From: a virus
Virus record (IMG/VR): IMGVR_UViG_3300025872_000302
Location: 1 to 23,994 of that record
Length of the DNA stretch: 23,994 nt
Direction: 5' to 3' (one strand)
Shown: in pieces, positions 2,991 to 19,929 of the stretch
How the letters are laid out: each line of letters begins with the position of its first letter
Numbering within the stretch: position 1 is the first letter of the stretch
Made by a program: the position numbers and the translations under genes
The notes under the pieces: generated by a model
Databases searched by the model: none
Told to the model about the DNA's origin: nothing
What the model saw: only the letters and a program-made list of their open reading frames with translations

Positions 2991-4205
2991 ATGAGACGAG
3001 TCAAATTCCAAGAAGGCGGGCAGGCCCGCGCGGAGTTTCCATTTGAGACACGCCGCCGCATGCGGGAAGAAGCTGCTGCCGCTGATCGTGCTGCTCGCGG
3101 AGAAGCGCCGCGCCGTTCCGTTCCAGATTGGCTAAGTGACTACTACCGTCAACTTGAGGAAGCGCAGCGGAACTTTCGGTCAAACCGGGGTGCCTCTCCC
3201 GCGACGCCGCCTGCTCCGTCTCGTGCGGCTCCAACTCCGGCGCCCACCATTCCCCGTAATCCTGCGACGGCGTCTCGCCCTCCCGCTTCTGGCGCCAACT
3301 TCCCTGGCGAAACCGTTACCGAGGCGGCTCCTATTGCTGACTACGAAGAGCGTATGCAACGCGGTGCGCTTCCGGCTGGACGTAGTGCAACACCCGGTCC
3401 AATGGGCCAGTATGGGGAAAGCGCCGCCGCAGGAAATGCTGCCCGCTCTCGTCCGGCTGCACGTCCAGCACCACGTCGTCCGGCGCAGCGCGAGATGTCT
3501 GCCGAAGAGCGTCAGGCTTTCATGGAACGCATGATGCGTGAGGAAGCGGATCGTGAAGCGGCTGCCCGTCGGTCGGAGCGTGGCTTCTTCGAGCGCATGG
3601 GCATTCGTCGCACTAACGAAACGGGCCTAGAGCCTGGCACCGAAGCTCGTATGCGTGACATGTATGGTTCACAATACAGCAGCCAATACAACATGAAGCA
3701 GGGCGGCAAGGTCAAAGCATATCGTGAGGGCGGTGCAATCCGTCAGGGCATGCAGTCTCCGAAGGCCCAAGAGGGTCGTGCGGAAATGGCCGAAGACGTG
3801 ATGCGCCGTGAACGTGCGCGTGAGCCGATCTCTGACAAGGAGCGCAAGGCTGGCCGGGCAGAAGCTGCTATGGATAGCGGCCCGCTGACAGGTGCCGAGA
3901 AGGAACGCATGCGTTCGTCCGGCTTCAAGAAGGGCGGCATGATCAAGCCGAAAGGTCATGGCATGAAGGAAGAAGCCATGGAAATGAAAGGCGGTCGTTA
4001 TCGTGGTGGCATGAAAGAAGAGATGGCAGAGATGCGCTCTATGTCCAAAATGAAGAAAGGCGGTGCTGTCAAGAAGGCTGCTGGCGGCAAGGTAGCTGCG
4101 CCCAAGAAGATGATGAAGGGCGGCATGACCTCCAAGCCCAAGAAGATGATGGGTGGCGGCAAAGTGAAGTACGCTAAAGGTGGTATGACCCGAGGCTGCA
4201 AGTAA
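2991..4205 (+). CDS. Low-complexity basic GG-motif protein, 404 aa
   Basis: I do not recognise a named family. ATG 2991 has an AAGGA ribosome site about 9 bases upstream. The N-terminus carries one GG-motif (VKFQEGG, 4-10). Residues 25-65 and 165-225 are charged helical stretches rich in Arg, Glu, Ala and Met. Residues 68-165 are a Pro/Ala/Arg/Ser-rich, probably disordered linker. From 234 to the end there are ten further GG-motifs of the type KQGGKV, REGGAI, KKGGMI and AKGGMT, with many Met and Lys. The protein is very basic, has no membrane segment and one Cys near the end (C403). It overlaps the next gene by one base (TAATG). Possible roles are DNA binding or a virion packaging tag; both are guesses from composition. 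Confidence 0.65.
   Translation: MRRVKFQEGGQARAEFPFETRRRMREEAAAADRAARGEAPRRSVPDWLSDYYRQLEEAQRNFRSNRGASPATPPAPSRAAPTPAPTIPRNPATASRPPASGANFPGETVTEAAPIADYEERMQRGALPAGRSATPGPMGQYGESAAAGNAARSRPAARPAPRRPAQREMSAEERQAFMERMMREEADREAAARRSERGFFERMGIRRTNETGLEPGTEARMRDMYGSQYSSQYNMKQGGKVKAYREGGAIRQGMQSPKAQEGRAEMAEDVMRRERAREPISDKERKAGRAEAAMDSGPLTGAEKERMRSSGFKKGGMIKPKGHGMKEEAMEMKGGRYRGGMKEEMAEMRSMSKMKKGGAVKKAAGGKVAAPKKMMKGGMTSKPKKMMGGGKVKYAKGGMTRGCK
3702..4184 (+). repeat. Ten GG-motif copies in the 404 aa protein
   Basis: Codons 238-398 of the 404 aa protein contain Gly-Gly pairs at residues 238-239, 247-248, 315-316, 334-335, 339-340, 357-358, 365-366, 377-378, 388-390 and 397-398. Most are preceded by Lys, Glu or Gln, often with Met, Phe or Tyr two or three residues earlier, and followed by one residue and Val, Ile or Thr. 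The spacing is irregular and the DNA is not a tight tandem repeat, so the repetition is conserved at protein level. Confidence 0.7.
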
Positions 4206-4765
4206 TGTCTGAACGCATGCCTCCCAAACGGCGTCGAACCCCGAATGAAAGGGGCATGACCGAAGAGGAAATTCTGCGGGACCGCTCTGGTCTTGATCCG
4301 ATGGCTCGCTATCCGTTTGCAACCAGCCGTGATCCAGGCTATGTTGTGGGTGGCCCCCAGATGACAGACCCTCGCCATTTCGAATTGATGCAACGTAACC
4401 GCGAAGAAGCCCGCACTCAGGGCACGCGCCTCAAGGGTGGCGGCATGGTCGAAATTGAAATCAAAGTGGGCGGCGGGGGCAAACACAAAATGCCTGACGG
4501 CTCCATGATGGAAGACCACGAAATGGAAGAAGGCGAAGAATACAAGAAGGGCGGTCGCGTCAAGAAGATGGCAAAGGGCGGCGCGACGGGTGGCAAGTTC
4601 ATTCAGAAGGCCATCAAGAAGCCGGGCGCTTTGCGGGCGCAAATGGGTGTCAAAGCGGGTGCCAAAATCCCTGCCAAGAAACTGGCCGCAGCCGCCAAAG
4701 CACCGGGTAAGCTGGGCCAACGCGCGCGGTTTGCACAAACTCTAGCTAAGATGAGGAAGAAGTAA
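4205..4765 (+). CDS. Basic GG-motif protein with conserved C-terminal block, 186 aa
   Basis: The start at ATG 4205 overlaps the stop of the 404 aa gene by one base. Residues 1-75 are charged and probably partly disordered. Residues 77-130 hold Gly-rich GG-motifs (KGGGMV, VGGGGKH, KKGGRV, AKGGAT) around an acidic patch (MMEDHEMEEGEEY, 101-113). Residues 131-186 (KFIQKAIKKPGALRAQMG, then AKIPAKKLAAAAK, then GQRARFAQTLAKM) match a block I recall as a free-standing or C-terminal segment in many unrelated phage proteins, with no known function. The protein is highly basic overall and has no Cys or membrane segment. Close coupling to its neighbours suggests joint expression with the 404 aa protein. 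Confidence 0.65.
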   Translation: MSERMPPKRRRTPNERGMTEEEILRDRSGLDPMARYPFATSRDPGYVVGGPQMTDPRHFELMQRNREEARTQGTRLKGGGMVEIEIKVGGGGKHKMPDGSMMEDHEMEEGEEYKKGGRVKKMAKGGATGGKFIQKAIKKPGALRAQMGVKAGAKIPAKKLAAAAKAPGKLGQRARFAQTLAKMRKK

Positions 4766-5701: not shown

Positions 5702-5942
5702 GAAAACTCAGCAATCGCTAGTAGATTGGCACAAACAACGTTGGCGGACCAAGTCTGGTAAGCCAAGCACCCAAGGACCGGAGGCTACAGGTGAAAGATA
5801 TTTACCGGAAGCTGCGATCAAAGCTATGCCAAGCGGCACGTATGCTGCGTCGTCTGCTGCCAAAAGGAAAGCTACGAAGGCGGGCAAGCAGTTCTCAAAA
5901 CAACCCGCCCGCGCCGCCTCAATAGCCAAGAAGTTCCGCTAG
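5691..5942 (+). CDS. Small basic conserved phage protein, 83 aa
   Basis: The sequence (QQSLVDWHKQRWRTKSGKPS, then TGERYLPEAAIKAM, then AKRKATKAGKQFSKQP) matches a family I recall in many marine phages and giant viruses, sometimes fused behind a DUF5872-type segment; function unknown. It is very basic, has no Cys or membrane segment, and is probably cytoplasmic or DNA-associated. ATG 5691 lies within the end of the endonuclease gene, with AAGGA upstream near 5677. Its TAG (5940-5942) shares CTAG with the stop of the minus-strand glycan gene. This is the last plus-strand gene in the window. Confidence 0.65.
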   Translation: MALKKTQQSLVDWHKQRWRTKSGKPSTQGPEATGERYLPEAAIKAMPSGTYAASSAAKRKATKAGKQFSKQPARAASIAKKFR

Positions 5943-8092
5943 AACGGATACTCCTCTAGCGGGGTGTAGTTGTTGACAGTCGTGTCCCAGATGGCACCAC
6001 CCGCGCCTTCGCCGTGGAACTTGACGGTGATGCGATTGTCGACCAGCCACTTGTTCCACTGACCCAAGTCCTGCATCGCAGCAATCAGTTCGCCCGTCGT
6101 CAAGAATTGCTTGTCGGCTCCCAGCGTGATCTTCATCAGCGATTGCTTGATGTCTTCTTGCTTCACGTCTTCTGGGTAGAAGAAGTCATAGCCGTAGAAC
6201 TCGAAACGGCGGAAGCCCATCACAAACGCCAACATTGGAATGCGGGTCGCCGAGCAGGTACCACCCATCACGACCATGCCCCTGTCGAAGGACGCGGGCT
6301 TGGCTGCCAGAGTAGCTTGCGTATGTGCGTGCCACCCAAACAGTTGAGCGCCCTTGCTTTCGAGGTGCTTGCGTACTGACGGGTGCGTCATGGTCGCAAA
6401 CAGGACTTTGTCTTCGGGTCCCGCATCCGCGAACAGATCAGTTCTGATGATGCCGTGCGTGGACTTGCCGTCAACCGGGCGTGGGTCCAAGATGACAGTC
6501 CAATCAGGCGTGATGCCCGCGCGCTTCAGGGTGGGGAAGGCGTGCTTGACTGTAAACACCACCGCGCCCTTGGCTTGCCGCTCCTTGATTTCGTCTAGAT
6601 ACTTTTCGAGGGTCGGACCCGCGCTTACAAACAAAGCTACCTGTTCGTGCGCCTGATAGGAGCCGATCCAAGTTTTGAGGTTGGCAGCGTTATCAGCAAT
6701 ATGCTGCAATTGCTCGCCCTTGTCAACCGAATCTACAGGCTTTACTTGAATGCGCGTGCGAAGTTCTGGCATCTGATAGCCTTCGCGCACCACCAGCCCC
6801 AACGAGATGGTTTGCTTCAGACCCGCATAGCCGTCGCCGCTAGTGATCATGCGCTTCTGGCCAGCGACTTCCCCGAACACACGGCGCGGACCCTCGGGCG
6901 CACCCTCTTCCTCCTTGGCAATCACGTCATCGAATACCACGAAGGGCACGTGTGCTAGGTTGTCGTAGTCGGAGCGGGTCGTCTCATAGGAGTGACCGCC
7001 GTCGACGTAGGCGAAGGTGGCAGTCTTGACTACTTCCTTGGCGTTCGGTAACGTGACGAGGGTGTTGCCTTTCAGCAGGGTGTAGTCGAAGGTCAGGCCC
7101 TTGCGCGACATCATGCGGCTGTAGTTGTTGAGGCGGTTGCCTACAATCCAACTGCTGGCATGCGGCTTGGTGTGGCCTTCATGGGTGCGGTCGTTGCCGT
7201 CCTCGAAAGTGTCGAAGCCCACGTAGCTGACTTGCTTGAGGCCCGCAGCAAAAGCGCACTCGGCCATCTGGATCGCGCGGCTCCCATTCCACGTACCCAC
7301 TTCCACGATGTTCGCTTTGCCCGTCGCCTTGATGGACGCAGTCAGCAACTCACATAGCGTTTCGTATCGGGCGGGCGCCCCAAGCGCGGGGTTGGCGATG
7401 GTCTGCTTGTCGGGGCCTTTGTAATGGATCATATAGGCGCCCAAGAGCGATTGATGGAACGCATCCAGCCCAAGCGCACCCTCCGCTAAGTTCTTGACGA
7501 GCAGGCCGTGCGCCCGATGCAATATGACCAGCCTGTCGAGGACCGCGTTGTCGTGCGCCTTCTTGTAGTGGAACGCCTCGAAGCTATCGTACAGGCCCCA
7601 GTAATCGGCCAGCAGCGAAGCACCCTTGGGCGTAGCCAAGTTGAAGGCAAACCACGAACCCTCGCTTTCGGCGATGCCTTTCCTGTACAAGTACGTCAGG
7701 TGGGCGTTGTCGTCGAACAGCGACGAAAGTAGATTGTCGTCGACTGTACGCATGGTTTCGGTGTCGGCGTCAATGAAGCCAATCCAATCTAGCTGGGGCG
7801 TCACGCTAGATGCTAGGGCTACAGCCTTGAAGCAGTATTCGAGGGCCGGGCCATTCTTGGCATCAGCGCCCAAGCGCGCCTTCAGCTTCTGGAAGGACTT
7901 GGTTTCGTCCAGCGAGCGGAAGGTGACGCCTTCCAGGGAGGGCACATTGCCTTCGAGATCGTGGTGCCAAATTTCTAGCGAGATGTTGGAGGGCCAGAAC
8001 TTCAGGAAGGATTCAGCGAAGCGGCGACCATAGGTTTCCCAGCCGCCCGGCCCAATGGTGGTTACGATCTTAGCGTGCATTGTGGTAGGCAT
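5939..8092 (-). CDS. Tri-domain glycan protein: glycosyltransferase, methyltransferase, MptE/Maf-like
   Basis: 717 aa with three apparent modules. Residues 1-230 look like a GT-A glycosyltransferase (IVTTIGPGGWETYGRRF, with D108-A-D110 in WIGFIDADTE as the likely nucleotide-sugar/metal site). Residues 240-440 are a class I SAM methyltransferase of the Methyltransf_24 kind (IVEVGTWNGSRAIQMAE at 262-278, VGFDTF, AYVDGGHSYETTRSDY at 361-376, FDDV). Residues 480-640 resemble the DUF115/MptE-like domain of Maf flagellin glycosyltransferases (LFVSAGPTLEKYL, then GITPDWTVILDP, then GGTCSATRIPML and FYGYDFFY). Starts at 8092 or 8080 are both possible. It overlaps the upstream glycosyltransferase gene by up to 23 bp. 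A role in building or attaching a methylated glycan on host surface or virion proteins is inferred. No frameshift is seen. Confidence 0.75.
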   Translation of the reverse strand: MPTTMHAKIVTTIGPGGWETYGRRFAESFLKFWPSNISLEIWHHDLEGNVPSLEGVTFRSLDETKSFQKLKARLGADAKNGPALEYCFKAVALASSVTPQLDWIGFIDADTETMRTVDDNLLSSLFDDNAHLTYLYRKGIAESEGSWFAFNLATPKGASLLADYWGLYDSFEAFHYKKAHDNAVLDRLVILHRAHGLLVKNLAEGALGLDAFHQSLLGAYMIHYKGPDKQTIANPALGAPARYETLCELLTASIKATGKANIVEVGTWNGSRAIQMAECAFAAGLKQVSYVGFDTFEDGNDRTHEGHTKPHASSWIVGNRLNNYSRMMSRKGLTFDYTLLKGNTLVTLPNAKEVVKTATFAYVDGGHSYETTRSDYDNLAHVPFVVFDDVIAKEEEGAPEGPRRVFGEVAGQKRMITSGDGYAGLKQTISLGLVVREGYQMPELRTRIQVKPVDSVDKGEQLQHIADNAANLKTWIGSYQAHEQVALFVSAGPTLEKYLDEIKERQAKGAVVFTVKHAFPTLKRAGITPDWTVILDPRPVDGKSTHGIIRTDLFADAGPEDKVLFATMTHPSVRKHLESKGAQLFGWHAHTQATLAAKPASFDRGMVVMGGTCSATRIPMLAFVMGFRRFEFYGYDFFYPEDVKQEDIKQSLMKITLGADKQFLTTGELIAAMQDLGQWNKWLVDNRITVKFHGEGAGGAIWDTTVNNYTPLEEYPF

Positions 8093-8840
8093 CCGTTAGT
8101 TCGTTCGTCCAAAAGTTGTCAAAGGGTGTAGGCTCGCGGTCGACCATGCCCGGCGCCGGAGGCCCGAACGTGAAGTGGACTGCATTTACGGGGACGTTTT
8201 TGTTTTGGGCTTCCCGATCTAGGGCCGCGTCAGTGGTCGGGCTGTAGTTGGGAATCCAATGCCACGACTCTGAGAGGTAGCCGATGTCCGAGTCGCGCAA
8301 CCAGCCGAACGTGTGGAGGTGATTGCCGCTGGCTTCGTTGACCATCTCAACGGTGGGCAGCTTGTTGGACTTGAGATTCCACAACATGAGCGCCGACCAC
8401 ATCTTGCGCTTATAGCGGGACTGCACTTGACCATCCATCTTGACGGTCTTGTCAGGCTCGAAGTTGTGTGGTACCACCATGACCGTCTTGCTGGAGTCAG
8501 CTTCTTGGAGCAGCTTATGAATGTCGTCGAGCCACAGCCAATCGCAATCGGTGAAGAGCGCCCAATCTGTGACGCCGTCCAGCTTAGCGACGATGGGAGT
8601 GAGGAAGCGCGTGTGCGAGAACTGTACACTGAATGGCTTGCCGTCACGCTCGTCGGTGTAGGTGCCATCCTCATTGACTCGCCATGGACGGTCGAACAAT
8701 TGGCGGCGGCGCAGGTCGATGTGTTCTAGGCGCTTGACTTCAACGGGCTTGCTGGCATAGGCACGGACAGACGCCTCGGTAACTCGCAGTGCGTCCGGCT
8801 CTCTGTGATCTACGCCAATGTAGTAGGCAAAATTTGGCAT
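8070..8840 (-). CDS. GT-A type glycosyltransferase, 256 aa
   Basis: The N-terminus (YIGVDHREPDALRVTEASVR) and the D98-C-D100 motif in WALFTDCDWLW are typical of a GT-A nucleotide-diphospho-sugar transferase, GT8-like in style. The region KMWSALMLWN (146-155), the GYLSESWHWIPNY block (187-199) and a late histidine (H222 in AVHFTFG) fit acceptor and metal sites. There is no signal peptide or membrane helix, so the enzyme is cytoplasmic. It is the first gene of a two-gene unit with the tri-domain protein and has its own promoter upstream. Sugar and acceptor are unknown; tail or capsid proteins, DNA bases or host glycans are all possible. Confidence 0.75.
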   Translation of the reverse strand: MPNFAYYIGVDHREPDALRVTEASVRAYASKPVEVKRLEHIDLRRRQLFDRPWRVNEDGTYTDERDGKPFSVQFSHTRFLTPIVAKLDGVTDWALFTDCDWLWLDDIHKLLQEADSSKTVMVVPHNFEPDKTVKMDGQVQSRYKRKMWSALMLWNLKSNKLPTVEMVNEASGNHLHTFGWLRDSDIGYLSESWHWIPNYSPTTDAALDREAQNKNVPVNAVHFTFGPPAPGMVDREPTPFDNFWTNELTDAYHNAR

Positions 8841-8875: not shown

Positions 8876-8880
8876 CAAAT
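8867..8880. promoter_or_regulatory. 14 bp palindrome over the -35 box (candidate operator)
   Basis: ATTTGT-CA-ACAAAT is a perfect 6 bp inverted repeat with a 2 bp centre. It covers the whole -35 hexamer of the glycosyltransferase promoter and touches the stop codon of the giant gene. Its place is right for a repressor site, but a 12 bp core of the same sequence also occurs inside coding DNA at 12633-12644, so chance is possible. Confidence 0.35.
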
Positions 8881-11800
8881 TACTCAGGTTTATTGCGCCA
8901 CAGTAGGGCCTGCGTTTGGCGTTCGATTTCAGGGCGCATAGCCACTGGAGCGCGACGCTGCATTATGGCTTGGCTTGGCATGCCCAGGAAGTCGTTCACT
9001 GCGCGCGTTTCGATGGCTGTCGTGTTCAGATTGATGCGACGATCCAGCGGCTTGCCATCTTGTTCTCGGACAATCTCAGCGACACGGGTGCGGAACTTTT
9101 CGAGTTCACGGGCAGCCCTAGTCATATCGCCATCGCGCCGTGCGTCAAGGCTGTTGGTCAAATACTTGGCCAGTTCCTTGTTGGCTTTCTCGGTGGGTTC
9201 GCGCATCTGTCGGCTGATTTCCTCGGACAGCGTAGCCGCTTCCCGCAAGTTGACAAGTTCAGGAGCCGGGAAGCCGACGGCCTGACGTAGCGCAGCAGGG
9301 AAGTTGGTGGTTTCGTTGTAGCTACGAAGGATGTCAGGCGTAAGCATGCGGTTGCCTTGCAGCGTGCGCTGCTCCTCGTTTACGTAAAGGTTGGCACCAC
9401 GAATGACGTTGCCCACGGCGCGCGGCATGACGACGGCGGCAGCATTCCAGTAGTCACCGTTCGCAATGTACTCGGGCATGCGGCTCAGGTAGGCTTCGGC
9501 AAGCCCGCCGACAGGACCCATCATCCCGAAAATCGAAAGCGGGGATATTTCTTGGAATGGTACGGGGTCAATTTTCATGCGGTTGGCAAGAGAGGCGCCG
9601 CCGTAAGCATGGGGCACACCGCGAAGCACGGCTTCAGCAAAGCGCCCGCCGCCGAGCCAGATGCGTGCGTCAGCATCAAAGTTCTGCGCGCCCTTGAACA
9701 GTTTGGCTGCCAGCTTCTCAAGCAGTTCCTTGGTGAAGTCAGCGCCCGGCAGGCCCCATACACCCGCCAGCAGAACAAGCGGGCCGACCATGCCCATCAT
9801 GCCGACAAAGCCAGCACGCGCCATGAACGGGTCCACTTTGTAGATACCTTCCAAAAGCATGGCGCCGTGACGCACATACTGTTCGATCATCTTGAGCGGG
9901 AACGACATAAACTGCGTAGCCACTTCAGCGCCCGGCGAGAAGCGTTGAATGTAAGCGCGGTCTTCCTTCGAAGTCAGGAACTGCGTATCAAAGACCTTGC
10001 CCATTGCGTAGCTGTAGGGGTCTGTGTAGCCTGTATTGTCAGCACGATTACCACGTTCGATTACTTTTGGGTCGGACTTAGCGAGGCGGTAGGCGGCAAG
10101 GAAGGTGGTCAACCTGTTGACTTCCTCGATGGCTTGCATAGGCTTGCCAAGGAAATTGGTCAGCTTGTTGAGAGTCCGGGCAGTGCCAGGAGCATTCTTT
10201 ACGCCAGCCTTACGTAGCCCTTCAGCAGTGAATTGCCCGCGACTTTCATTTGTGTAAACCGGGCTGAACACACCTTCGCGGGCGGCGCGTGTAACAGCGT
10301 CAGCTTCGTCACCCTTCAAAACTTTGCTGACGGTAGCCTTAGTAAACTGTGTTTCGCCACTCAACAGCTTGCCCAAGTCTTTGTTGAGAAGGACAGTGTT
10401 GTAGGCAGATGCCAGGAACTTGGAGGCACCCAGACCACCGTCACGGATCAGCATTGGAAGCGTTGTCTGGAAAGGCTGAGTCGCGTTTACGAGGGCAGTG
10501 TCAACGGCGGCTCCCAGATACATGAAGAATGCTGCACCGCGCGCGGCACCGAATGCTTCAGTTGGAGTTGTAGCATAGTCGCGCAGATCGTTCAAGAAGT
10601 TCTTATCGTTGAACGACAGATTTTCCAGGGACTTGTTCCACTCATCTTGGGTGTAGCGACGAGCTTGTATTTTGGCAACAGACATTGCGTACTGGGGCAG
10701 CACGTCCAGCACGTAGCTGGTTTCGTTATCGGGCGTAACCGCGCGCAGGATGTCTTGGTTGGGGCGGAACAGACGGTCAAGGCTGGCCTTGTCGATTTCC
10801 TTCTGCATCTTAGCAATCACTTGCTGGCCGTTTTTGCCCACCACCCCAATCAGTTGCTGCAAATACTCAGCAATGAAGTCACCCTGCTCGCGAAGCTTCT
10901 GGGCCTTCTGGTCGTTGGTGAATTGCTGGCCGCGCTCCATAATGGTATGGGTGGCGGCGCTAGGGAATTCCTTGCGGAGTTCCGCGATGGCTGCCTTTTC
11001 GGGATCAGCAAAACCGCGCAGCTTTTGCGCCATGTTCAGGGGCGTGTAGGGAATCAGACGCACGATGTCCTTGGCGCCACCGGCTCCCTTCTTGTAGGCA
11101 GCGACGAAGTGCGTGCCGCGTGCGATTTGCGGGAAGTAGTATGGGTTGCGAAGACGGTCGATCTCCTGCATTTTGCGGAAACCTTCGGGCGACGCGGCTG
11201 CCAGTTCCTTTGAGGGGATTTCCCACAGGTGTACACGGCCATGCTTGTCCCAGAAATTTTCGAGGCGGGCACGTTCGGCAGGCGCTTTACCTTCGTCGGG
11301 TAGGAAATATTTCATAACAAAGGCTTCTTGCAAATAGTCAAATGCACGCTGGCCCATGTCGAACATGCCTTGCAGAGCGGTCTTCTCTTCTGCTGTCAGG
11401 TTCTTGGTGTCAGGCTGTTTGCGTGTGCGGGAAGCAACTTCAGCAACGCGCGTAATCTTGGCGCGGGACTCAGGCGATAGACGCGCGGCGGGGGCCAGCA
11501 TCTCAACTAGCTCGTCCGAAGCTTCTTGGGTGCGGGTGTACATGTTCCGCATGGCTTCTGAAGCGGCACGCAAGGCGGGCTTGACTTTGCCCATAGTCAT
11601 GATACCAGAAGAGAACCACTTGAATACGCCCGTGATCTGATCGTCCATTGCTTGCTTGACAATCTTGTGGGCTTTGTTGGTATCGGTAGGAAGATGTGGC
11701 GAAGCCAGCGACTGCTGCACTGTTTGGGCATCAATGGTTGGATCGGCATCAGATGCTGAAGCGAGGCCAGACTGCTTGAGGATTTTGCCGTCACGATAGC

Positions 11801-14800
11801 CCTTGATGAAATCCTCGACAGCGCGGTCAGGCAGGGCTTGGCTACCGAAAGACGCAACAATCTTGCGATAGCCGTCGGCAATCTTCTTGAAAAACTTTTC
11901 TACTAAGCCGCGCGGAACCTCGTTGGTAACGGCCCACTTAGCTACGTTGTCAGCAAACCATTCTTGGAAGCTACGCAAATAACTATTGTCGATGTCTTTG
12001 AAGGGGGTATTAAGCATAGCGGCATTAACTTCGCGCAGCCTGATAGCCCGAGCGGGTGTACGAAGTTCCCCAAAAAATTCGCCTAGTGTCTGGCCTTCGG
12101 CTTTCTTCAAGAAGTTTTGGAAAGCATCCCGCACAGCCTGTTGAGTTGCAGCAGGCGCCCTGTTGAAAGCATCGTATTGGAAGTAGTGACCAATTTCGTG
12201 AGCGAGTGCCTCCATTTGTATTTCTGGTGAACGCGTAGTATCCACCATAATAACCACATCTTTGATGCCGGGGTTACTAAAGTAAATGCCCTGCGTAGTA
12301 GGTGACTGTGATCCGGCAGTACGTACAAAATTATATCTGCCGTACAACTTGTATTCGTCAGTAAAACCTGGGCGCTCGGCATCCTGTTTTGAAACAAAGA
12401 TGACATTTGAATTTGTCAACTTCAGTTCTTGGAGAAGCTTCTTGCCATAGTTGACAAGGTTCTTAGGCATGCTTCGGGTGGCAACAATTTGTTCGTTGAC
12501 AAACGGGCCTGCCGGATTATCTTTGGCAAGCTGCTCCAAGTTAAGGCGGCGCTCCTCAATTTTCTGAACGACGCGAGTAAGGTCTTCAGTGGTCAGGTAG
12601 CTCCCAGGAGGAACCCCCGTCGGCTTATTGTTTTTGTCAACAAAGTTGTCAATGCCGAAAGCATATGCTTTTGCATTTGGGTTGTTGCTAACGAAATAGT
12701 AGCGGAGGCTGCCGTTATTTTGATCGGGATGCTCGACAATACCTACCTTAGCATCCTGATAAATAATTTCGCCGCCCCTCAGAAAAGGGCGTTTGCCTAA
12801 AGCTACAGTGGTGTTGCTTTCGTAGGAGGGCGGCAATTGAGGTGGCGCAATCGGCGGGGCCTTCGGCGCAGGTGCAGCTTTAGGCTTGGCTTTCGGTGCA
12901 GGCGGAGGGGGCGCGGCTTTTGGTTGGGGTGCCGGAGCTTGCTTGGGGGCATCCACGTCACGCCACTTTAGGCGCCCGATACCGTCAACCAAACCTAGCT
13001 TGGTCGCCTGCTCATTAACAAAGCGCCCTTGTGCTTCTGAGAAGGGTATGTTATTTTCACGGAAAAGCTGCTGCCACTTCTTCCACGACATGACTTCGCG
13101 GGGGCTGCGGTTCTGCGTCAGACGTTGCAAAAGTTGCGGACCTTGCACCGGGTCACTAAGAAGCTGCTGAAGCTGGGCAGTACGCTGTAGTTCGGGCGCC
13201 CGCGCAATACCTAGCAGCGTTCCAAGCGGGTCTTCGGTGGGGCGGAAACCCGGAGCCGGAGTGACAGTCTCACGCAATTCCGTTTGCCCGCCGGGAGTTG
13301 TAACGCCTGCCGGAGCGGTAATGCCAGTGAGTTGCTCGATGCGCCGTGCCTGCTGCCCCGCAAAAGCGTTTTCAATTTCACGCATAAATTGCTGGCGCAT
13401 CGCAGGGTCTTGCGGCCAAATGTTTTGCAGAGTAGCAGCATTCTGGCTGCCCACTATGTTGATGAGTTCTGGTGAGAGCGCCAGTTCAGGATTGCGGCGG
13501 CGTTCAGCAGCCAACTGACTTTGCTTTTCGCGCGTGCCAATGTAGTCGTTGAAGAGATTGGCAACAGTGGGATCGGGGCGATTGCCAAACTTTGCTTGGT
13601 AGTCAGTAAGTTCTTGCTGGGTAAGGCCGCGATACTCACCTCCCAGGAACTGGCTGATCTTTTGGAGCGCGGGCACCTCTGTATTAAGGTATTCGCCGCT
13701 ACCCAAAAATTCACCGACGCGCCTGCCCACTTCTTGTTGCGCGGTTTCAGGAGCCTGACGCACAAGCCCTGCCAAGCCTGGGAACTCTGCGGCACCAGCT
13801 TCACCCTCGCGGCGAAGACCACGTTCACCGGGCTGCTGAAGGACACGCCCCTCGCGACGAGCTTTGATAGCTTCGAGAGTTTCGATGTCGCGCCCGGTTA
13901 CGCCGTAGGTTCCGCGCCCCTCATCGCCTTCAATAAGAAAGCCGTTTCTTTTCAAGGCTTCTAGTTGCTGCTTGACGAAGCCGATTTCTTTTTTGGTGGG
14001 AGCGTCAGCTTCAGGGCCGAGGCGCGCCAAAGCTTGGTTGGTGATGTCCTGAGCATTAAAGCTGCCAATGTTCAAGCCTGCTTGAGGGTCCTTAGCTGCT
14101 TCCAAAATGCGCTGCATGAACTGAACAGCCTGACCGTCGCGCACTTCACGAACTTGCATTTTGCCTTTTGCGTCCGGTTCTTCAAACGTGCGGATGGCTT
14201 TGGTTGCCATGAACTCGCCCAGTTCGTTTTGGCGGATTTTATTTACTTGGTCGCGATAATCTTGCTGCTGATAACGATTTGCCAATATAACAGCACCCTC
14301 GTCATCAATATCAAAACGGGGCGCAAACTCCGGCCTGCTTGCAAAGAATTGACGTGCCTCTTCGCCCGTGCTAAAAGGAGTCGGCGCAGGAGGCAACAAA
14401 GACGGCTCGGGCGGTTCTGCTTGGACGGGCGCGGTTTCGCCTTCAGCGGGAAGCTGGGGACCGTAGCCTGCGCGACTTTCCAATTCAGCACGGGCACGGG
14501 CCGGATCGCGCGCACCACTGACGCCGCCCAGCGCACCACCACCAATGGAACCTAGAGCAGCATCGAGCAAAACCCTGTCAGCACGATTGGCAACATCGAA
14601 GTTACCGGAGGCAAGCGCAGCAGTAGTTTCGCGGGCAGCACCGCCAACAGCTTCGCTACCACCTTCGAGGGCAATGCCTGCCAAGGTGCCGCGTGCGGCT
14701 GCTGATTGGGCACTGCGATTGCTTATCTGAATTAAGCCTTCAGCAGTTTCACGGCGCAGTGTCCTGCCAAGTGCCCTTGAAATCAAAGCACCTGCGGCGC

Positions 14801-15431
14801 CACCTTCGCCAGCACCAATGAGACCGCCAACCCCTACAGCCAAACGCCGTGCTGTGTCGGGGTCCACGTTCGGTTCGTTCTTAAGCAAGCCTTCAAGCTC
14901 GCTGGTAGAAGATAGCGCGCCCGTAAGAATGGACGTACCCAAGCCGACAGCACCCGCCAAACCTGCGCCCGCGCCCAAGCCCGCTACGCCCAATGCTGCC
15001 GCTACAGGCAATGCAACAGAACCCGCGAGCGACCCCGCCGCCGTACCAATAGCAGCAGGAATAGCCTCAGTGGGGCGGCTGACAACCTGACTCAGAAAAT
15101 CACGGAAGCCTTCAAATCCGCGTGTTTCAAGTGCAGGCTCACCGCTAACGGTCTGGCCCAGGTTACGCAGAGTTTCTTGGCCGGGCAGCCCGACAGTCTC
15201 AGCATAAGGCGCCGCACCAGATATTTGTGAGCCTAGCGCGCCTCGTGCCGAACTAACAAAGCTGGAACCCAGGCCCGTTAGTGGGCGACTTTCGTTCCAC
15301 TTGGCGAAGCCTTCTGGGTCGGATTGCCTGAAGTAATCGCGAGCCTTAGAGATAACTTCGGAACGCTTGTCTTCGGGCGCTTCGATTTCGACAATCTGGC
15401 CATTAGGCAGCGGGATTTCAAATAGCGGCAT
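8880..15431 (-). CDS. Giant polyvalent/ejection protein with zinc metallopeptidase motif, 2183 aa
   Basis: Probably an internal virion protein ejected with the DNA, judged by size, place in the late operon and domain style. Residues 124-220 are Gly/Ala-rich hydrophobic segments that could insert in a membrane. Residues 340-830 are helical and charged. A Pro/Ala/Lys linker lies at about 828-868. A zincin-type site follows: HEIGH at 1078-1082 with E1157 in FQEWFADN as the likely third ligand, a pattern known from phage polyvalent proteins. The C-terminal half has hydrophobic stretches near 1624-1660 and 1873-1895. A region at about 1750-1855 (GKPMQAIEEVNRLTTFLAAY and FMSFPLKMIEQYVRHG) recalls large-polyvalent-protein domains such as LPD38. 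No transglycosylase domain was recognised. It starts by TAATG overlap with the 299 aa gene. Confidence 0.75.
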   Translation of the reverse strand: MPLFEIPLPNGQIVEIEAPEDKRSEVISKARDYFRQSDPEGFAKWNESRPLTGLGSSFVSSARGALGSQISGAAPYAETVGLPGQETLRNLGQTVSGEPALETRGFEGFRDFLSQVVSRPTEAIPAAIGTAAGSLAGSVALPVAAALGVAGLGAGAGLAGAVGLGTSILTGALSSTSELEGLLKNEPNVDPDTARRLAVGVGGLIGAGEGGAAGALISRALGRTLRRETAEGLIQISNRSAQSAAARGTLAGIALEGGSEAVGGAARETTAALASGNFDVANRADRVLLDAALGSIGGGALGGVSGARDPARARAELESRAGYGPQLPAEGETAPVQAEPPEPSLLPPAPTPFSTGEEARQFFASRPEFAPRFDIDDEGAVILANRYQQQDYRDQVNKIRQNELGEFMATKAIRTFEEPDAKGKMQVREVRDGQAVQFMQRILEAAKDPQAGLNIGSFNAQDITNQALARLGPEADAPTKKEIGFVKQQLEALKRNGFLIEGDEGRGTYGVTGRDIETLEAIKARREGRVLQQPGERGLRREGEAGAAEFPGLAGLVRQAPETAQQEVGRRVGEFLGSGEYLNTEVPALQKISQFLGGEYRGLTQQELTDYQAKFGNRPDPTVANLFNDYIGTREKQSQLAAERRRNPELALSPELINIVGSQNAATLQNIWPQDPAMRQQFMREIENAFAGQQARRIEQLTGITAPAGVTTPGGQTELRETVTPAPGFRPTEDPLGTLLGIARAPELQRTAQLQQLLSDPVQGPQLLQRLTQNRSPREVMSWKKWQQLFRENNIPFSEAQGRFVNEQATKLGLVDGIGRLKWRDVDAPKQAPAPQPKAAPPPPAPKAKPKAAPAPKAPPIAPPQLPPSYESNTTVALGKRPFLRGGEIIYQDAKVGIVEHPDQNNGSLRYYFVSNNPNAKAYAFGIDNFVDKNNKPTGVPPGSYLTTEDLTRVVQKIEERRLNLEQLAKDNPAGPFVNEQIVATRSMPKNLVNYGKKLLQELKLTNSNVIFVSKQDAERPGFTDEYKLYGRYNFVRTAGSQSPTTQGIYFSNPGIKDVVIMVDTTRSPEIQMEALAHEIGHYFQYDAFNRAPAATQQAVRDAFQNFLKKAEGQTLGEFFGELRTPARAIRLREVNAAMLNTPFKDIDNSYLRSFQEWFADNVAKWAVTNEVPRGLVEKFFKKIADGYRKIVASFGSQALPDRAVEDFIKGYRDGKILKQSGLASASDADPTIDAQTVQQSLASPHLPTDTNKAHKIVKQAMDDQITGVFKWFSSGIMTMGKVKPALRAASEAMRNMYTRTQEASDELVEMLAPAARLSPESRAKITRVAEVASRTRKQPDTKNLTAEEKTALQGMFDMGQRAFDYLQEAFVMKYFLPDEGKAPAERARLENFWDKHGRVHLWEIPSKELAAASPEGFRKMQEIDRLRNPYYFPQIARGTHFVAAYKKGAGGAKDIVRLIPYTPLNMAQKLRGFADPEKAAIAELRKEFPSAATHTIMERGQQFTNDQKAQKLREQGDFIAEYLQQLIGVVGKNGQQVIAKMQKEIDKASLDRLFRPNQDILRAVTPDNETSYVLDVLPQYAMSVAKIQARRYTQDEWNKSLENLSFNDKNFLNDLRDYATTPTEAFGAARGAAFFMYLGAAVDTALVNATQPFQTTLPMLIRDGGLGASKFLASAYNTVLLNKDLGKLLSGETQFTKATVSKVLKGDEADAVTRAAREGVFSPVYTNESRGQFTAEGLRKAGVKNAPGTARTLNKLTNFLGKPMQAIEEVNRLTTFLAAYRLAKSDPKVIERGNRADNTGYTDPYSYAMGKVFDTQFLTSKEDRAYIQRFSPGAEVATQFMSFPLKMIEQYVRHGAMLLEGIYKVDPFMARAGFVGMMGMVGPLVLLAGVWGLPGADFTKELLEKLAAKLFKGAQNFDADARIWLGGGRFAEAVLRGVPHAYGGASLANRMKIDPVPFQEISPLSIFGMMGPVGGLAEAYLSRMPEYIANGDYWNAAAVVMPRAVGNVIRGANLYVNEEQRTLQGNRMLTPDILRSYNETTNFPAALRQAVGFPAPELVNLREAATLSEEISRQMREPTEKANKELAKYLTNSLDARRDGDMTRAARELEKFRTRVAEIVREQDGKPLDRRINLNTTAIETRAVNDFLGMPSQAIMQRRAPVAMRPEIERQTQALLWRNKPE

Positions 15432-16330
15432 TAGAGCGGGCGACCTGTATTAAAGTCAATACGTGTACGGTTTTCGTTTTGTGCTGGCGCAGCAGCGGCA
15501 GCGGGGGCATTCGGATCAGGCCGCTGTTCCCACGGCGCACGAGGACGCGGGTTATTTCGCAGCCACGCCTGCAAATCATTTTGAATACGCGCCTCACGTT
15601 GCTCGGGCGACTCAGTAATCGAAGGCGCGGTTGCGCGCAAGCGGCTTTCAAGATTTTCGCGGGACTGCGACCATGCCGCATAGCGGCGCGCTTCAGGGGA
15701 GCGTTCTGGATCAACGAAGGATGGACCACCCTCGCCGCCGACGCGAGTAACCCTGCCGCTCTCGTGAACATTGTAAAGATTGCCGTCGGCATCGCGCTGC
15801 TGCCCAACTACACGGTCACGCTGTTCTTGATTGGCGCGGCGAGTAGCAGCGTCAGCAGCCCTCACATCAGCTTCGGCTTTCATAAGGGCAGCGCGGGCTT
15901 GCCAGCTATCGGGATTTTCTTTATAGCGTTGCTCGGCATCAGCCAAGATAATCTTAGCTTGAGTTTCAGCACTTTTGCGACGTTCTTCGCTGGCACGTGC
16001 GTCGAATTGCTGCTGGGCTTGCATGCCTGCGGCCAAGTCGCCAAAGAAGCCATAGCGGCTACGCGGATTCGTTAGCATGCCCGCACCTAGTGCGGCAAGG
16101 CGGTCAGCAGTAGACGGTTCCGGGCTTACCATATCGCGGACGCTTTCCCGCAGTGTCTCCAAGAGGGGAGGCCGTTCGGCTGGTGTTTGTGCCGCGCCGG
16201 GGGTCACAACAGGAGTAGCAGCAGGAGCCGGGGCTGCCGCTTGACCGGGACGTTGACCTACTGTCTGCTGCCACAATCGACGAAGTTCTTCACGAAAACC
16301 AGATTGTGCTTGCGGTGTCGGTTCAGCCAT
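15431..16330 (-). CDS. Helical candidate internal virion protein, 299 aa
   Basis: No named family recognised. Residues 28-55 and 265-290 are Ala/Pro-rich linkers. Residues 76-106 (RLAALGAGMLTNPRSRYGFF) contain a small mildly hydrophobic patch typical of internal proteins in marine podoviruses as I recall them. Residues 103-175 form a long Ala/Glu/Gln/Arg helix that is probably a coiled coil. There is no Cys and no signal peptide. It lies between two candidate internal proteins and is joined to the giant gene by a one-base overlap, so an internal core or ejection role is the best guess. An AGGA ribosome site lies about 9 bases before ATG 16330. The 42 bp gap upstream holds no convincing promoter. 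Confidence 0.55.
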   Translation of the reverse strand: MAEPTPQAQSGFREELRRLWQQTVGQRPGQAAAPAPAATPVVTPGAAQTPAERPPLLETLRESVRDMVSPEPSTADRLAALGAGMLTNPRSRYGFFGDLAAGMQAQQQFDARASEERRKSAETQAKIILADAEQRYKENPDSWQARAALMKAEADVRAADAATRRANQEQRDRVVGQQRDADGNLYNVHESGRVTRVGGEGGPSFVDPERSPEARRYAAWSQSRENLESRLRATAPSITESPEQREARIQNDLQAWLRNNPRPRAPWEQRPDPNAPAAAAAPAQNENRTRIDFNTGRPL

Positions 16331-16372: not shown

Positions 16373-17323
16373 TTATAGACCCAGCGCGCCGCCAAGTTCT
16401 TTTAAGTTTTTAATGAACTTAGGACCCTGGTTGATGGCGCCAACAACGGCTGTGAGAGGATTGGCGCCCGGCTGCGAGCCTGCTTGCGAAGTGCCCACGC
16501 CCAGGACTTGAGGGCTAAGGCCGAGGGTCTGGCGCAGGGCGGTAATGCCACGCAGCGGGAAGTCACGTTCTTCTTCGTACTGCTGACGGAGGACGTCGAG
16601 GTTCGCTTGTTCGCGTGCCTGCTGCAAGCCGCCCGTCTGGAGAAGCGGATTGACCATGCTACCAAAAGCGCCTTGCGTTTGTTGGAGGCCCGTGCCAAGT
16701 TGGCCCTGCATCTGAGCGTAGAGCGCGGGGATGTTGGCTTGGTCTTTGCGGAACTGCTCAAGAGCTTGGTTGTAGGCTTTGGCGCGCTCGGCTGCGGTCG
16801 TTTCGGCGATGTTGCGCTGGGTGCCACGGCTTAGTTCGGATTCGGCGATGGCTTGGCGGGAACCGCCGAAGGAGCCTGTGCGTGCGGATTGTTGGCCGAG
16901 GGCAAGGCGTTCCTTGGCAGCGCGCTCTTCAATGGCCCGGATCATGGGGTCGATGACGCCCTGCGTGTACGGCGACATGTACGCTTGGATGTCGGTCTCA
17001 GGCAAAGTAGTGGCCATCTTGCGCGTAGCCGAAATGGCTTCATTCGCGAGGCCCGGTGTAAGACCGCTCAGGCCCCCGGCTTGCTCGGCTAGGGTGCGGG
17101 CAGACTCGAAAGCTTGTTGCTGGTCGGGCGTGAACTGAGCGACGCGGGGAATGGCATTGCCTTGCGCGTCGACGTAAGGCTGGTAGGGTTCGGCAGCAAA
17201 GCCGCGCGTGCGTGCAAGCAGTTCATCAACGGTGGCCTGCGTATTTGAGGGGAGGGTGGGCGTCGTAGTCTGTGAAGTCTTTTGAGGCCCGATGCCGAAC
17301 AGAGTTGAAAGCACGCCGCTCAT
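16373..17323 (-). CDS. Helical candidate internal virion/DNA-ejection protein, 316 aa
   Basis: Residues 42-72 (EPYQPYVDAQGNAIPRVAQF, then TPDQQQAF), the MSPYTQGVIDPMIRAIEE block (116-133) and ARTGSFGGSRQAIAESE (147-163) match a family I recall widely in podovirus-like genomes beside tail genes. Its members are often annotated only as hypothetical or as putative internal/DNA-transfer proteins. The middle is long Ala/Gln/Arg helix and the C-terminus is Gly-rich and mildly hydrophobic. ATG 17323 overlaps the stop of the 869 aa gene (ATGA), with AAGGA about 9 bases upstream. The late-operon position supports a virion role; a catalytic function is not apparent. Confidence 0.6.
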   Translation of the reverse strand: MSGVLSTLFGIGPQKTSQTTTPTLPSNTQATVDELLARTRGFAAEPYQPYVDAQGNAIPRVAQFTPDQQQAFESARTLAEQAGGLSGLTPGLANEAISATRKMATTLPETDIQAYMSPYTQGVIDPMIRAIEERAAKERLALGQQSARTGSFGGSRQAIAESELSRGTQRNIAETTAAERAKAYNQALEQFRKDQANIPALYAQMQGQLGTGLQQTQGAFGSMVNPLLQTGGLQQAREQANLDVLRQQYEEERDFPLRGITALRQTLGLSPQVLGVGTSQAGSQPGANPLTAVVGAINQGPKFIKNLKELGGALGL

Positions 17324-19929
17324 TTCATAGTCCTTTCGAGAATCTTGCCGACGGGCAGGGGACCTGCCTGCTTAGAGGTGCCGGTCTTTTCTTGGCGCAC
17401 TTGGCGCACTATATCGTAAAGGCGCTTGGCACCAGCGTTGGAGGAGCCGTCGCCCATCATGCTGACCACGTCGGCTGGAATGACGAACTCGCCGTCCGAG
17501 AGGGCAGCAGCGCGGCGTCCGTCAATGGAAGTCGGGATCAGGTCATCGAGACCACCGCCCGGCCCGCGCGCCACTTTGCCGCCACCCACCAGAGGAATCA
17601 GGCCGCCGCCCGCGAACGCCATCTCCGGCTGGACTTCGTCAAGCGAAAGCTGCGGCATGGAAGGCTGGGACTGATCCAAAGCTCCGTAGTAGTTTGTGTA
17701 ACTATACGGCATTTCGCCCGGTAAGTCAACCAAGCCGCCTTCCTGATAGCGCACCATTCCGCCCTCCGCGAACAAGCCTCCAAAGAAATCACCGATACTG
17801 CCAAAGATGTCACCGAAGACGTCACTAATCCACTCGACACCTTTTTCGATTTGCGTGGAAATCCAGCTAATGCCATCTTGAATGGGGCTTTCATATCCTA
17901 GCGCATCGGAAAGAACACTGTCAAGTACAAGGGCCGCGCTAATAAAGGGGCCTGCGCCAGGGATGCCGAGCGCCGCCAAAGCAGATGCGCCCATGTCGAC
18001 GGCTGCATTAGTCAGTAGGGTCGTAGCAACATTGGCAGCCGACTCGGCAAAACTGTCACCGCTGATGAGCGACGTTATCATGCCCGTGACAGGGTCGCCG
18101 CCCAGCCCTATGAAATCTGCTACGTCACTGCTAATGTCGGTGAGTTTGCCAACACCTTCTGCAAGCGCATTGAAAGCTTCGCTGTCAAGACTGTTAGCTA
18201 TTTCACGGGCAACAGCGTTTACGTCAATGCCAACAGAAGTGTCGCCTTCCCCGCCACCACCAAAGGTCAGAAACTGTGATGCAGCCGACTCGCCCACCAA
18301 CTTAGAGAGTACGTCCGGTTGACTGATGGCTTCGTAAATGAAGTTGCTGCGAAAATCATCTGGCGAGAAATTCGCCGACATGATGTTGTTGGCATAATAA
18401 TCATCAGCAAATTTTTGCAGACTGTTTACGAGTTCGGAGTTACCTGCGTTTGCACTTGCAAATTGTGCAAGTTGTTCTGCCGTAAGAGAAGTGGTGGCAG
18501 GAGCATTTGTTGCAGTTTGAGTGGGCTGCTTGAAGTAGCGGTCGTATTCGGCTTGGCTGATCTTGGAAGCTTCTTCGCCAGCACGCGCGCCACTGATGAT
18601 GTTTTGAGCGACCTCGTCAGGAGTGGCACCTGCCGCAAGTTGTGAGCGGAAGTACGACAAGCCTTCTGCGTCGGGCGCGCGATCAAGCAAATCCTCATAG
18701 AGTTTGCTGACGGTGTCGGTGTTTTGGGCTGCTTGGATGTCAGCACCTTGAGCGCCGGACACAAGATCACGCAGCAAGTCCGTCGAAGATTTACCAGAAG
18801 CAAGCTGTCCGGTCCAATAGTCAAGACCTTCCTGATCGACATCGGTGCGCCCAAACACTTGCTGATAAGCGTTCTTTACGGTCTGTTCGTCAGCGGCTTT
18901 ACGGCGTGCGGCTTCTATTTCAGCTTCGGTAGGACCAGTTACAACTGAAGTGTCGTTGCCTTCGCCGCCGCTAATAGTATCAATACCGTTGCCGCCACCA
19001 ATAGTGTCTAGATTAGAGAGGCCACCGTCAATGGTGTCGTTGCCGGTACCACCTTCAACAGTTCCAATGTCAGCTTTGAATTCTCGGTCATCAAAATACT
19101 TGCCAACGTCAAAGGTTTTGGCTTTGGTAATGTCTTCGCCTTGGGCGCCCCCAATAAAGTCGCGGACAATGTCTTCGAAAGGACGGTTGCCCTTCTCAAT
19201 TTCCTTAATCCAATACGCTTCACCTTCTGCATCGGATTCCCGACCAAGAATGTCTTTGTACAGCGACTCGACAAGTTGCTCATTAGCCGACTTGGTAACG
19301 GTGTCATTGACATTACCGCCCGAGATGGTATCTACAGTGTTGCCACCCGTTAGCGTATCAACAGTATTTCCGCCAGATATGGTGTCGACAGTGTTGCCGC
19401 CCGTGACGGTGTTGGTTACAGTGCCTTCGTCGTCTCGGCGTTGTTTTTTCTTTTCTTTTTCTTCACCACCACCAGAGGAGATCAACTGCATTAGAATTTC
19501 GTCAAGATTGTAGTCTTGCTGGTCTTGTTGGTCTTCGGTGGTGGTGCTGGCTGTCGTAGTGGTAACAGCTTGGACGGGCATCTGGTAGCGTTGCGGGGAC
19601 CAGAACAGATGGCCAGCGGACTCGGTGCCATAGCCTCCGGGCTTGACGTCTTGTTGCGGGCCGTAGTAACCGCGCGTAAATGTAATGTCAGTGAGGCCGG
19701 GCTGATAGTCTGGCTTGACTTGGATGCCCGGAAATAGCTGGGCGATTTGTTCGAGACCGCCCGTGAATTGGTCAAATGATATATTGGGAATGGTACGGTT
19801 CAGATAGGAGGCAAGATCGGGGGTCTCGGCACCGGAGTCAGCAGTGAGGTTATCCAGACCACCCATGGTATGGTACGTATCTTCGTCGTCGGAATAGGTG
19901 GGTTTCTTGCTGGAGAATGTATCGGACAT
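17320..19929 (-). CDS. Virion-associated protein with RTX-type nonapeptides and three DUF4214 repeats, 869 aa
   Basis: Order of parts: an acidic N-terminus; a Thr-rich, then Lys/Arg-rich segment (122-168); four GGNTVDTIS-type nonapeptides (177-212); DUF4214 repeat 1 (217-262, LYKDILGRESDAEGEAYW); further RTX-like units (293-329, with GGTGNDTID and GGEGNDTSV); DUF4214 repeats 2 (350-395) and 3 (405-450); a helical, partly hydrophobic region (570-720); two GG-motifs (AEGGMVRYQEGGLV, 721-734); and a conserved phage C-terminus (GPGGGLDDLIPTSIDGRRAA, then LSDGEFVIPADVVS, 789-823). RTX units normally bind calcium, and DUF4214 is common in secreted adhesins. ATG 19929 is chosen because the 59 codons before it overlap another gene and look random, and a -10 box plus GAGG precede it. 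A tail or internal virion role is inferred. Confidence 0.75.
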   Translation of the reverse strand: MSDTFSSKKPTYSDDEDTYHTMGGLDNLTADSGAETPDLASYLNRTIPNISFDQFTGGLEQIAQLFPGIQVKPDYQPGLTDITFTRGYYGPQQDVKPGGYGTESAGHLFWSPQRYQMPVQAVTTTTASTTTEDQQDQQDYNLDEILMQLISSGGGEEKEKKKQRRDDEGTVTNTVTGGNTVDTISGGNTVDTLTGGNTVDTISGGNVNDTVTKSANEQLVESLYKDILGRESDAEGEAYWIKEIEKGNRPFEDIVRDFIGGAQGEDITKAKTFDVGKYFDDREFKADIGTVEGGTGNDTIDGGLSNLDTIGGGNGIDTISGGEGNDTSVVTGPTEAEIEAARRKAADEQTVKNAYQQVFGRTDVDQEGLDYWTGQLASGKSSTDLLRDLVSGAQGADIQAAQNTDTVSKLYEDLLDRAPDAEGLSYFRSQLAAGATPDEVAQNIISGARAGEEASKISQAEYDRYFKQPTQTATNAPATTSLTAEQLAQFASANAGNSELVNSLQKFADDYYANNIMSANFSPDDFRSNFIYEAISQPDVLSKLVGESAASQFLTFGGGGEGDTSVGIDVNAVAREIANSLDSEAFNALAEGVGKLTDISSDVADFIGLGGDPVTGMITSLISGDSFAESAANVATTLLTNAAVDMGASALAALGIPGAGPFISAALVLDSVLSDALGYESPIQDGISWISTQIEKGVEWISDVFGDIFGSIGDFFGGLFAEGGMVRYQEGGLVDLPGEMPYSYTNYYGALDQSQPSMPQLSLDEVQPEMAFAGGGLIPLVGGGKVARGPGGGLDDLIPTSIDGRRAAALSDGEFVIPADVVSMMGDGSSNAGAKRLYDIVRQVRQEKTGTSKQAGPLPVGKILERTMK
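18943..19053 (-). repeat. Second RTX-like block with canonical units
   Basis: Codons 293-329 encode GGTGNDTID and, at the end, GGEGNDTSV, both fitting GGxGxDxUx or nearly so. Two less regular Gly/Asp units lie between them. The block sits between DUF4214 repeats 1 and 2. Confidence 0.65.
19294..19401 (-). repeat. Four 27 bp units coding for RTX-like nonapeptides
   Basis: Codons 177-212 of the 869 aa protein encode GGNTVDTIS, GGNTVDTLT, GGNTVDTIS and GGNVNDTVT. They keep the GGxxxDxUx frame of RTX calcium-binding repeats, but the fourth position is Thr or Val instead of Gly. The codons differ between units, so the DNA repeat has diverged while the peptide has been kept. Confidence 0.75.

Follow-up and report, generated by a model that had tools for sequence, protein, structure and literature searches.

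A conserved predicted zincin metallopeptidase in a giant polyvalent-type phage protein found mainly in uncultivated viral contigs

What does a phage protein of more than two thousand residues do with a metallopeptidase site, and on what would that site act? The question is raised by the window analysed here, the whole stretch of 23,994 nucleotides of IMG/VR record IMGVR_UViG_3300025872_000302 (positions 1 to 23,994), for which a sequence-only reading had proposed a 2183-aa candidate ejection protein with a zincin-type zinc site and membrane-type segments near both ends. The open reading frame is real and lies on the minus strand, a detail that the earlier reading had left out. Its parts are as follows.

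8880–15431, minus strand: 2183-aa polyvalent-type giant protein (P0001), ATG at 15431, stop at 8880
15297–15431, minus strand: exchangeable N-terminal module (PDG/PNG type), residues 1–45, candidate head-loading tag (N-terminus HMM)
14934–15041, minus strand: hydrophobic Gly/Ala-rich segment, residues 131–166 (Kyte-Doolittle)
12792–12947, minus strand: Pro/Ala-rich linker ahead of the protease region, residues 829–880 (18 Pro in the 40 residues from 829)
11787–12515, minus strand: predicted zincin metallopeptidase domain, residues 973–1215 (alignments, fold prediction, structure matches)
12186–12200, minus strand: HEIGH, residues 1078–1082, predicted two zinc ligands and catalytic Glu (motif, conservation)
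11949–11963, minus strand: EWFAD, residues 1157–1161, with E1157 the predicted third zinc ligand and Y1151 six residues before it (motif, conservation)
11118–11138, minus strand: degenerate counterpart of the PLxRFG motif, residues 1432–1438, with Y and P kept and the motif R not at the aligned place (sequence alignment)
9084–10601, minus strand: NF032893 tail-700 / PLxRFG tail domain, residues 1611–2116 (E 7e-41, 140.5 bits, cut-off 100)
9741–9815, minus strand: hydrophobic segment within the tail domain, residues 1873–1897 (Kyte-Doolittle)

Relatives of this protein were found here mainly in uncultivated viral contigs, with successive scans of viral contigs yielding 3, 4, 16 and 103 encoding stretches, each time including one contig identical to the window, and contigs of bacterial genomes adding three loci. 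Among isolate phages, tblastn with the window zincin matched three records at E ≤ 1, of which two also passed E ≤ 0.01, and with the zincin of a relative (L026) it matched none at E ≤ 0.001. A set of 85 ORFs was built from 79 of the 80 loci kept from the 103 relatives together with L003, L004, L005, L007, L008 and L022; the locus left out, L024, is the same contig as L002 and is identical to the window. Four alignments were drawn from the relatives: 12 zincin sequences (the window and 11 of 15 segments, leaving out L007, L008, L013 and L015); 22 full-length proteins (P0001 with 21 relatives taken from a non-redundant set of 30, leaving out L003, which reads HEMGE, and L004, L005, L007, L008, L022, L091, L094 and L095); 57 sequences (the window and 56 non-redundant sequences out of 86, L007 and L008 not among them); and a further alignment (A6) of 22 of 23 chosen relatives, from which L010 was left out for its length and which also lacks L007 and L008. 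N4-like zincins were represented by N4 and 6 of 218 matching records.

The zinc site is where the sequence-only reading had placed it, with HEIGH at residues 1078–1082 and E1157 in EWFAD at 1157–1161 forming a zincin-type ligand set. HEIGH is the sole HExxH in P0001, in which about 0.004 would be expected from composition (11 His, 157 Glu). That reading had made its proposal depend on ligand conservation in homologues, and this conservation holds: in 89 sequences, comprising the 85 ORFs, P0001 and the three bacterial-genome loci and including near-copies, HExxH is kept in 88, the exception being HEMGE in L003, and the third-ligand Glu of FxE[WY] is kept in all 89. The Tyr six residues before that Glu is present in 87 of the 89 and replaced by Asn in L003 and L004. 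Dropping copies more than 80% identical reduced the 86 locus sequences to 56, which share 21–34% identity with the window; among the resulting 57 sequences, columns holding H, E, G, F, E and W are invariant and eleven more, the second His and the Tyr among them, are conserved at 90% or above. The patterns used to find relatives contained the FxEW stretch and not HExxH (one of them began at the second His), so that the conservation of HExxH is the cleaner evidence; six rows without the FxEW pattern still keep both the Glu and the Tyr. The zincin domain is also the best conserved part of the giant protein, since 11 of the 13 invariant columns in the 22-protein alignment fall within residues 1078–1201, the other two being prolines in a badly aligned region.

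Structure prediction supports a zincin fold. AlphaFold2, run on residues 973–1222 with the 12-sequence alignment, gave a model with mean pLDDT 72 and pTM 0.71 in which an N-terminal helix and strands are followed by a helix bearing HExxH (model residues 97–115), more helices and a helix bearing EWFAD (183–196). The predicted model thus has the HEXXH helix, the later helix with Glu and the small sheet with an N-terminal helix ahead of them by which Iyer et al. 2017 recognise the zincin MPTase. Block-mean pLDDT reaches 81–87 over model residues 91–150, which hold HExxH, and 82–84 over residues 171–190, which hold EWFAD; the weak parts are residues 61–90 (53–72) and everything from residue 221 on (below 50). 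Foldseek of this model against the PDB gave no match at E ≤ 0.001, its best being anthrax lethal factor at E 0.021, and from about rank 12 the matches are mostly unrelated proteins. Among the best 50 entries from VIA, anthrax lethal factor 4dv8 scored Z 8.0 (151 residues, rmsd 4.2, 16% identity), PPEP-2 Z 7.5 and IrrE/PprI about 5.3; zincins and lethal-factor-fold domains make up most of the top of that list, though a Z of 8 is borderline by the tool's own note. The two best structural matches, the catalytic domain of lethal factor and the Pro-Pro endopeptidases, belong to what we take to be peptidase family M34, from which the P0001 domain differs in sharing about 15–17% identity in the structural alignments and no significant sequence match. 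In BFVD, which holds predicted viral structures, the best match was an uncultured-phage ‘Large polyvalent protein associated domain-containing protein’ (E 6e-11). The region is modelled with a zincin topology and its best structural matches are zincins, each of them individually borderline, as compared with sequence searches in which Pfam found no peptidase above cut-off in P0001 and domain profiles found no significant match among PDB sequences. The Pfam polyvalent MPTase model, presumably the one named MPTase-PolyVal, was ruled out as a match, being absent from the 18 families matched by any of the 12 members at E ≤ 1. The domain looks like a catalytically competent endopeptidase.

We read P0001 as one of the phage-type polyvalent proteins that Iyer et al. 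described in 2017, together with proposed roles for their zincins. They describe such proteins in phages and conjugative elements, with the zincin MPTase as the commonest domain, divided into 12 clades and linked by profile to lethal factor 4dv8 (PMC5512222). P0001 shares with their phage-type proteins its size and late context, a zincin with HExxH and a Glu in a later helix, and the link to 4dv8, and its relatives carry LPD38, ART and ddrB-ParB domains: among the 22 full-length proteins, Pfam finds LPD38 in 8, LPD39 in 4, ddrB-ParB in 3 and ART-PolyVal in 3, none of them in P0001, and GNAT also occurs in some relatives. LPD38 is listed by the same authors as phage-type only (PMC5512222). P0001 differs in that its zincin lies below Pfam cut-offs and no second enzymatic domain or LPD is recognised beside it, LPD domains giving no match in P0001 at E ≤ 1. 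Of the several disparate activities that the class combines in one chain, family searches and fold prediction recognise only the zincin as an enzyme in P0001; the front half of the protein contains the hydrophobic segment and low-complexity stretches.

A second comparison is with the virion RNA polymerase (vRNAP) of phage N4, which a preprint describes as an ejected protein with a membrane-binding N terminus, linkers, the polymerase, a C1 domain with HExxH and a helical C2 domain (PMC12633501). The order of a membrane-segment N-terminal part, a linker, a zincin and a large C-terminal part is common to both, but P0001 has no RNA polymerase module, none of the vRNAP Pfam families that match N4 gp50 matching it, and gp50 has no tail-700 match. 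With hhalign, P0001-type and N4-like zincins (57 versus 7 sequences) align over 200 columns including HExxH at probability 88.2 and E 2.9e-6; when N4 C1 was entered as one sequence and set against the 12-sequence alignment, the probability was only 2.7. In a tree that contains long branches and whose bootstrap had not settled, a branch supported at 99/94 separates the 7 N4-like zincins from the others, the window adjoins L025 (99/93) and P1 DdrB, the longest branch, groups with the N4-like zincins (92/91). On these sequence comparisons, the P0001 zincin is distinct from that of N4 vRNAP. Mass spectrometry has shown DdrB, to which Iyer et al. assigned a C-terminal zincin (PMC5512222), to be present in P1 virions, where it is placed in the head (PMC9024508); this head protein resembles P0001 in its HExxH zincin candidate and differs in its length of 995 aa, its great distance and its lack of a PLxRFG tail. 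BLASTP of P0001 against P1 DarB and DdrB found nothing significant.

At the other end of the chain, NCBIfam NF032893 ‘PLxRFG domain-containing protein’ matches residues 1611–2116 above its curated cut-off (140.5 versus 100 bits), phrog_11358 matches residues 1577–2017, and NF032893 is matched by 8 of the 22 full-length proteins, P0001 included. This likeness to the tail-700 proteins has two limits. The literal PLxRFG motif is absent from P0001, in which YFPQIARG at 1432–1439 stands in its place, and the whole of P0001 matched 57 isolate phage records at E ≤ 0.01, of which at most three could hold this zincin (tblastn E ≤ 1); the 40 matches listed all lie within P0001 residues 1461–2102. Some RefSeq records of the NF032893 type are named ‘DarB-like antirestriction’, and Lastavirus phages encode a 495-kDa ‘PLxRFG’ protein (PMC9505181). 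Structure prediction of residues 1222–2183 gave a poor model (pLDDT 47, pTM 0.38).

The N terminus appears to be modular. An HMM built from 23 N-termini, searched against all ORFs of at least 60 residues in the 85 related loci, the window and the three genome loci, matched 30 ORFs at E ≤ 0.1, several of them near-copies and one a separate 998-aa ORF in L090, with the best match in each at the giant-ORF N terminus and extra short secondary alignments further inside in 12. Because 23 of the 30 are training sequences, the search speaks for the specificity of the module and not for its breadth. Other relatives begin with quite different short segments, among them repeated ‘PEGW’, ‘LLSDD’ and helix-like segments. 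In P1 DarB the first 30 residues suffice to direct a reporter into the head (PMC9024508), which makes a loading tag a reasonable reading of the module of about 45 residues, and by this analogy we regard such exchangeable modules as candidate head-loading tags, reminiscent of sorting tags; the HMM itself found no match in P1 DarB or DdrB. If they are loading tags, they could provide an easy way of directing proteins into phage heads, as in P1 DarB. The membrane-type segments that the sequence-only reading saw near both ends are a fair description of P0001 itself (residues about 131–166 and about 1873–1897) and not of its relatives in general: by the same crude measure, a hydrophobic segment is found on the N side in 24 and on the C side in 15 of 69 sequences (the window and 68 full-length relatives, near-copies included), counts that rule out hydrophobic ends as a conserved family feature.

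Whether the protein travels with the virion has to be read from its genomic surroundings, in which the following genes lie next to it.

15431–16330, minus strand: 299-aa protein, gene directly upstream of the giant ORF, no family match
16373–17323, minus strand: DNA ejection protein (phrog_4287, E 5.4e-17), two genes upstream of the giant ORF
17320–19929, minus strand: DUF4214 late protein (Pfam)

Further upstream come genes for a virion protein (phrog_3287) and an SU10-type adaptor; the 2183-aa protein sits in a minus-strand run with the DUF4214, ejection-protein and structural genes. The arrangement recurs in part: with near-copies counted and not all loci holding upstream DNA, 47 of the 85 related loci have a homologue of the ejection protein (38 are without one) and 42 have one of the DUF4214 protein, and the 40 ejection-gene matches listed of the 47 are all upstream on the same strand. 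By phmmer, the virion gene 20245 has a homologue in 4 of the 85 loci, and the 299-aa gene, the SU10 adaptor and genes 22972, 22703 and 22104 have none. In Vibrio phage VS-ABTNL-3 the giant gene, annotated ‘putative DNA methylase’, is separated by one gene from a preceding ‘putative DNA injection protein’ gene, and in Microcystis phage Mae-Yong1326-1 the giant gene, annotated ‘peptidoglycan transglycosylase’, ends the structural module. The late position that the sequence-only reading gave the protein is supported, the giant gene coming two genes after that of a DNA ejection protein, with the 299-aa gene in between; from this gene order we infer that the giant protein is probably present in the virion and ejected with the DNA.

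Taken together, we consider it likely that P0001 is an ejected polyvalent protein with a working zincin. It would be a late product that is packaged in the virion and enters the cell with the DNA, its chain running from the exchangeable N-terminal module through the front half and the Pro-rich linker to the zincin and the PLxRFG-type tail. H1078, H1082 and E1157 would hold zinc and E1079 would activate water, with Y1151, as we presume by analogy with other zincins, perhaps stabilising the transition state. After ejection the protease would refold in the cell and cut its own chain and co-ejected proteins, or else a host protein. For such zincins Iyer et al. 2017 proposed that they process their own chain, either before packaging or once injected, or that they attack host proteins (PMC5512222). 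Given an ejected working zincin, cleavage of itself or its partners has not far short of an even chance and is slightly favoured because it is the standing proposal in the literature; host targets come next as a substantial possibility, nearly as likely because the protease is strongly conserved and P0001 has no other recognised enzymatic domain; processing at assembly or a non-catalytic role would then be unlikely. The N4 preprint contains a sentence beginning ‘We observe no evidence of degradation’ (PMC12633501), which speaks against automatic self-cleavage in the N4 relative.

A host target is the strongest rival, being a sub-case of the same proposal with a different substrate: the injected zincin would work as an effector, cleaving a defence or envelope factor of the host early in infection, with the remaining chain as its scaffold for delivery and anchoring. 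In its favour, conservation is strongest in the protease and the remainder of the protein diverges, P0001 has no other recognised enzymatic domain to be released, and Iyer et al. note zincin effectors in other conflict systems (PMC5512222); some relatives, however, carry effector-like domains (ART, ddrB-ParB, GNAT), which fits release from the chain too, and we hold this account to be possible and somewhat unlikely. It is doubtful that the domain is instead an assembly protease which processes the giant protein or other virion proteins before or during packaging. Iyer et al. made that proposal for P1 DdrB, which is processed to about 76 kDa before packaging with its own zincin suggested as the agent, but they also note that N4 vRNAP is packaged unprocessed (PMC5512222). 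Less probable still is a structural or regulatory element that is stabilised by zinc and lacks protease activity, as might hold within the C-terminal region of N4 vRNAP, where the part with HExxH has been assigned an inhibitory role and the sections of the preprint drawn on here do not mention protease activity (PMC12633501); one relative, L003, has lost a ligand His, but the general base E1079 and the Tyr are kept almost everywhere, and zinc binding alone would not need them. That HExxH arose by chance in a giant structural protein of another kind, for which the lack of a peptidase above cut-off in single-sequence family searches might speak, can be set aside in view of the predicted fold, of HExxH in 88 of 89 sequences and of the roughly 0.004 occurrences that composition predicts for P0001.

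Beyond the ejected polyvalent protein that we favour, a bolder and, as a whole, rather improbable extension would be a clade of ejected proteases of largely uncultivated phages in which the zincin is the one constant function and, as infection begins, acts in trans on a conserved protein that is either the host's or co-ejected, and the chain is a delivery vehicle with exchangeable head-loading tags of about 45 residues and a PLxRFG tail. The zincin is the commonest domain of polyvalent proteins and the sections of Iyer et al. drawn on here name no proven substrate for it (PMC5512222); in the sections of the literature that we searched for a substrate of polyvalent-protein zincins, none was found. 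As the best conserved part of a protein of about 2000 residues across very divergent viruses, the domain described here is a good place to test self-cleavage against host cleavage by injected phage proteases.

Several minor observations concern individual relatives and neighbouring genes. In L003, HEMGE lies at residue 1839 of an otherwise open 3083-codon frame, one ligand His being lost, and activity may therefore be dispensable in some members. A second HExxH, HELVH, occurs elsewhere in the giant ORF of L016 (frame residue 2439) and L099 (offset 859), perhaps giving two zincins per chain, and the same HELVH form is found in N4 vRNAP. In the window, the DUF4214 late protein (17320–19929, minus strand) has three DUF4214 stretches, together with RTX-type calcium-binding repeats too weak to reach the Pfam cut-off. 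Downstream of the giant ORF, a gene at 5939–8092 (minus strand) encodes Methyltransf_24 and MptE-like domains and one at 8070–8840 (minus strand) a 256-aa protein without a family match, each with a homologue in 4 of the 85 related loci, and the plus-strand genes at 1466–2053 and 4205–4765 encode small basic proteins with KKGG-type motifs.
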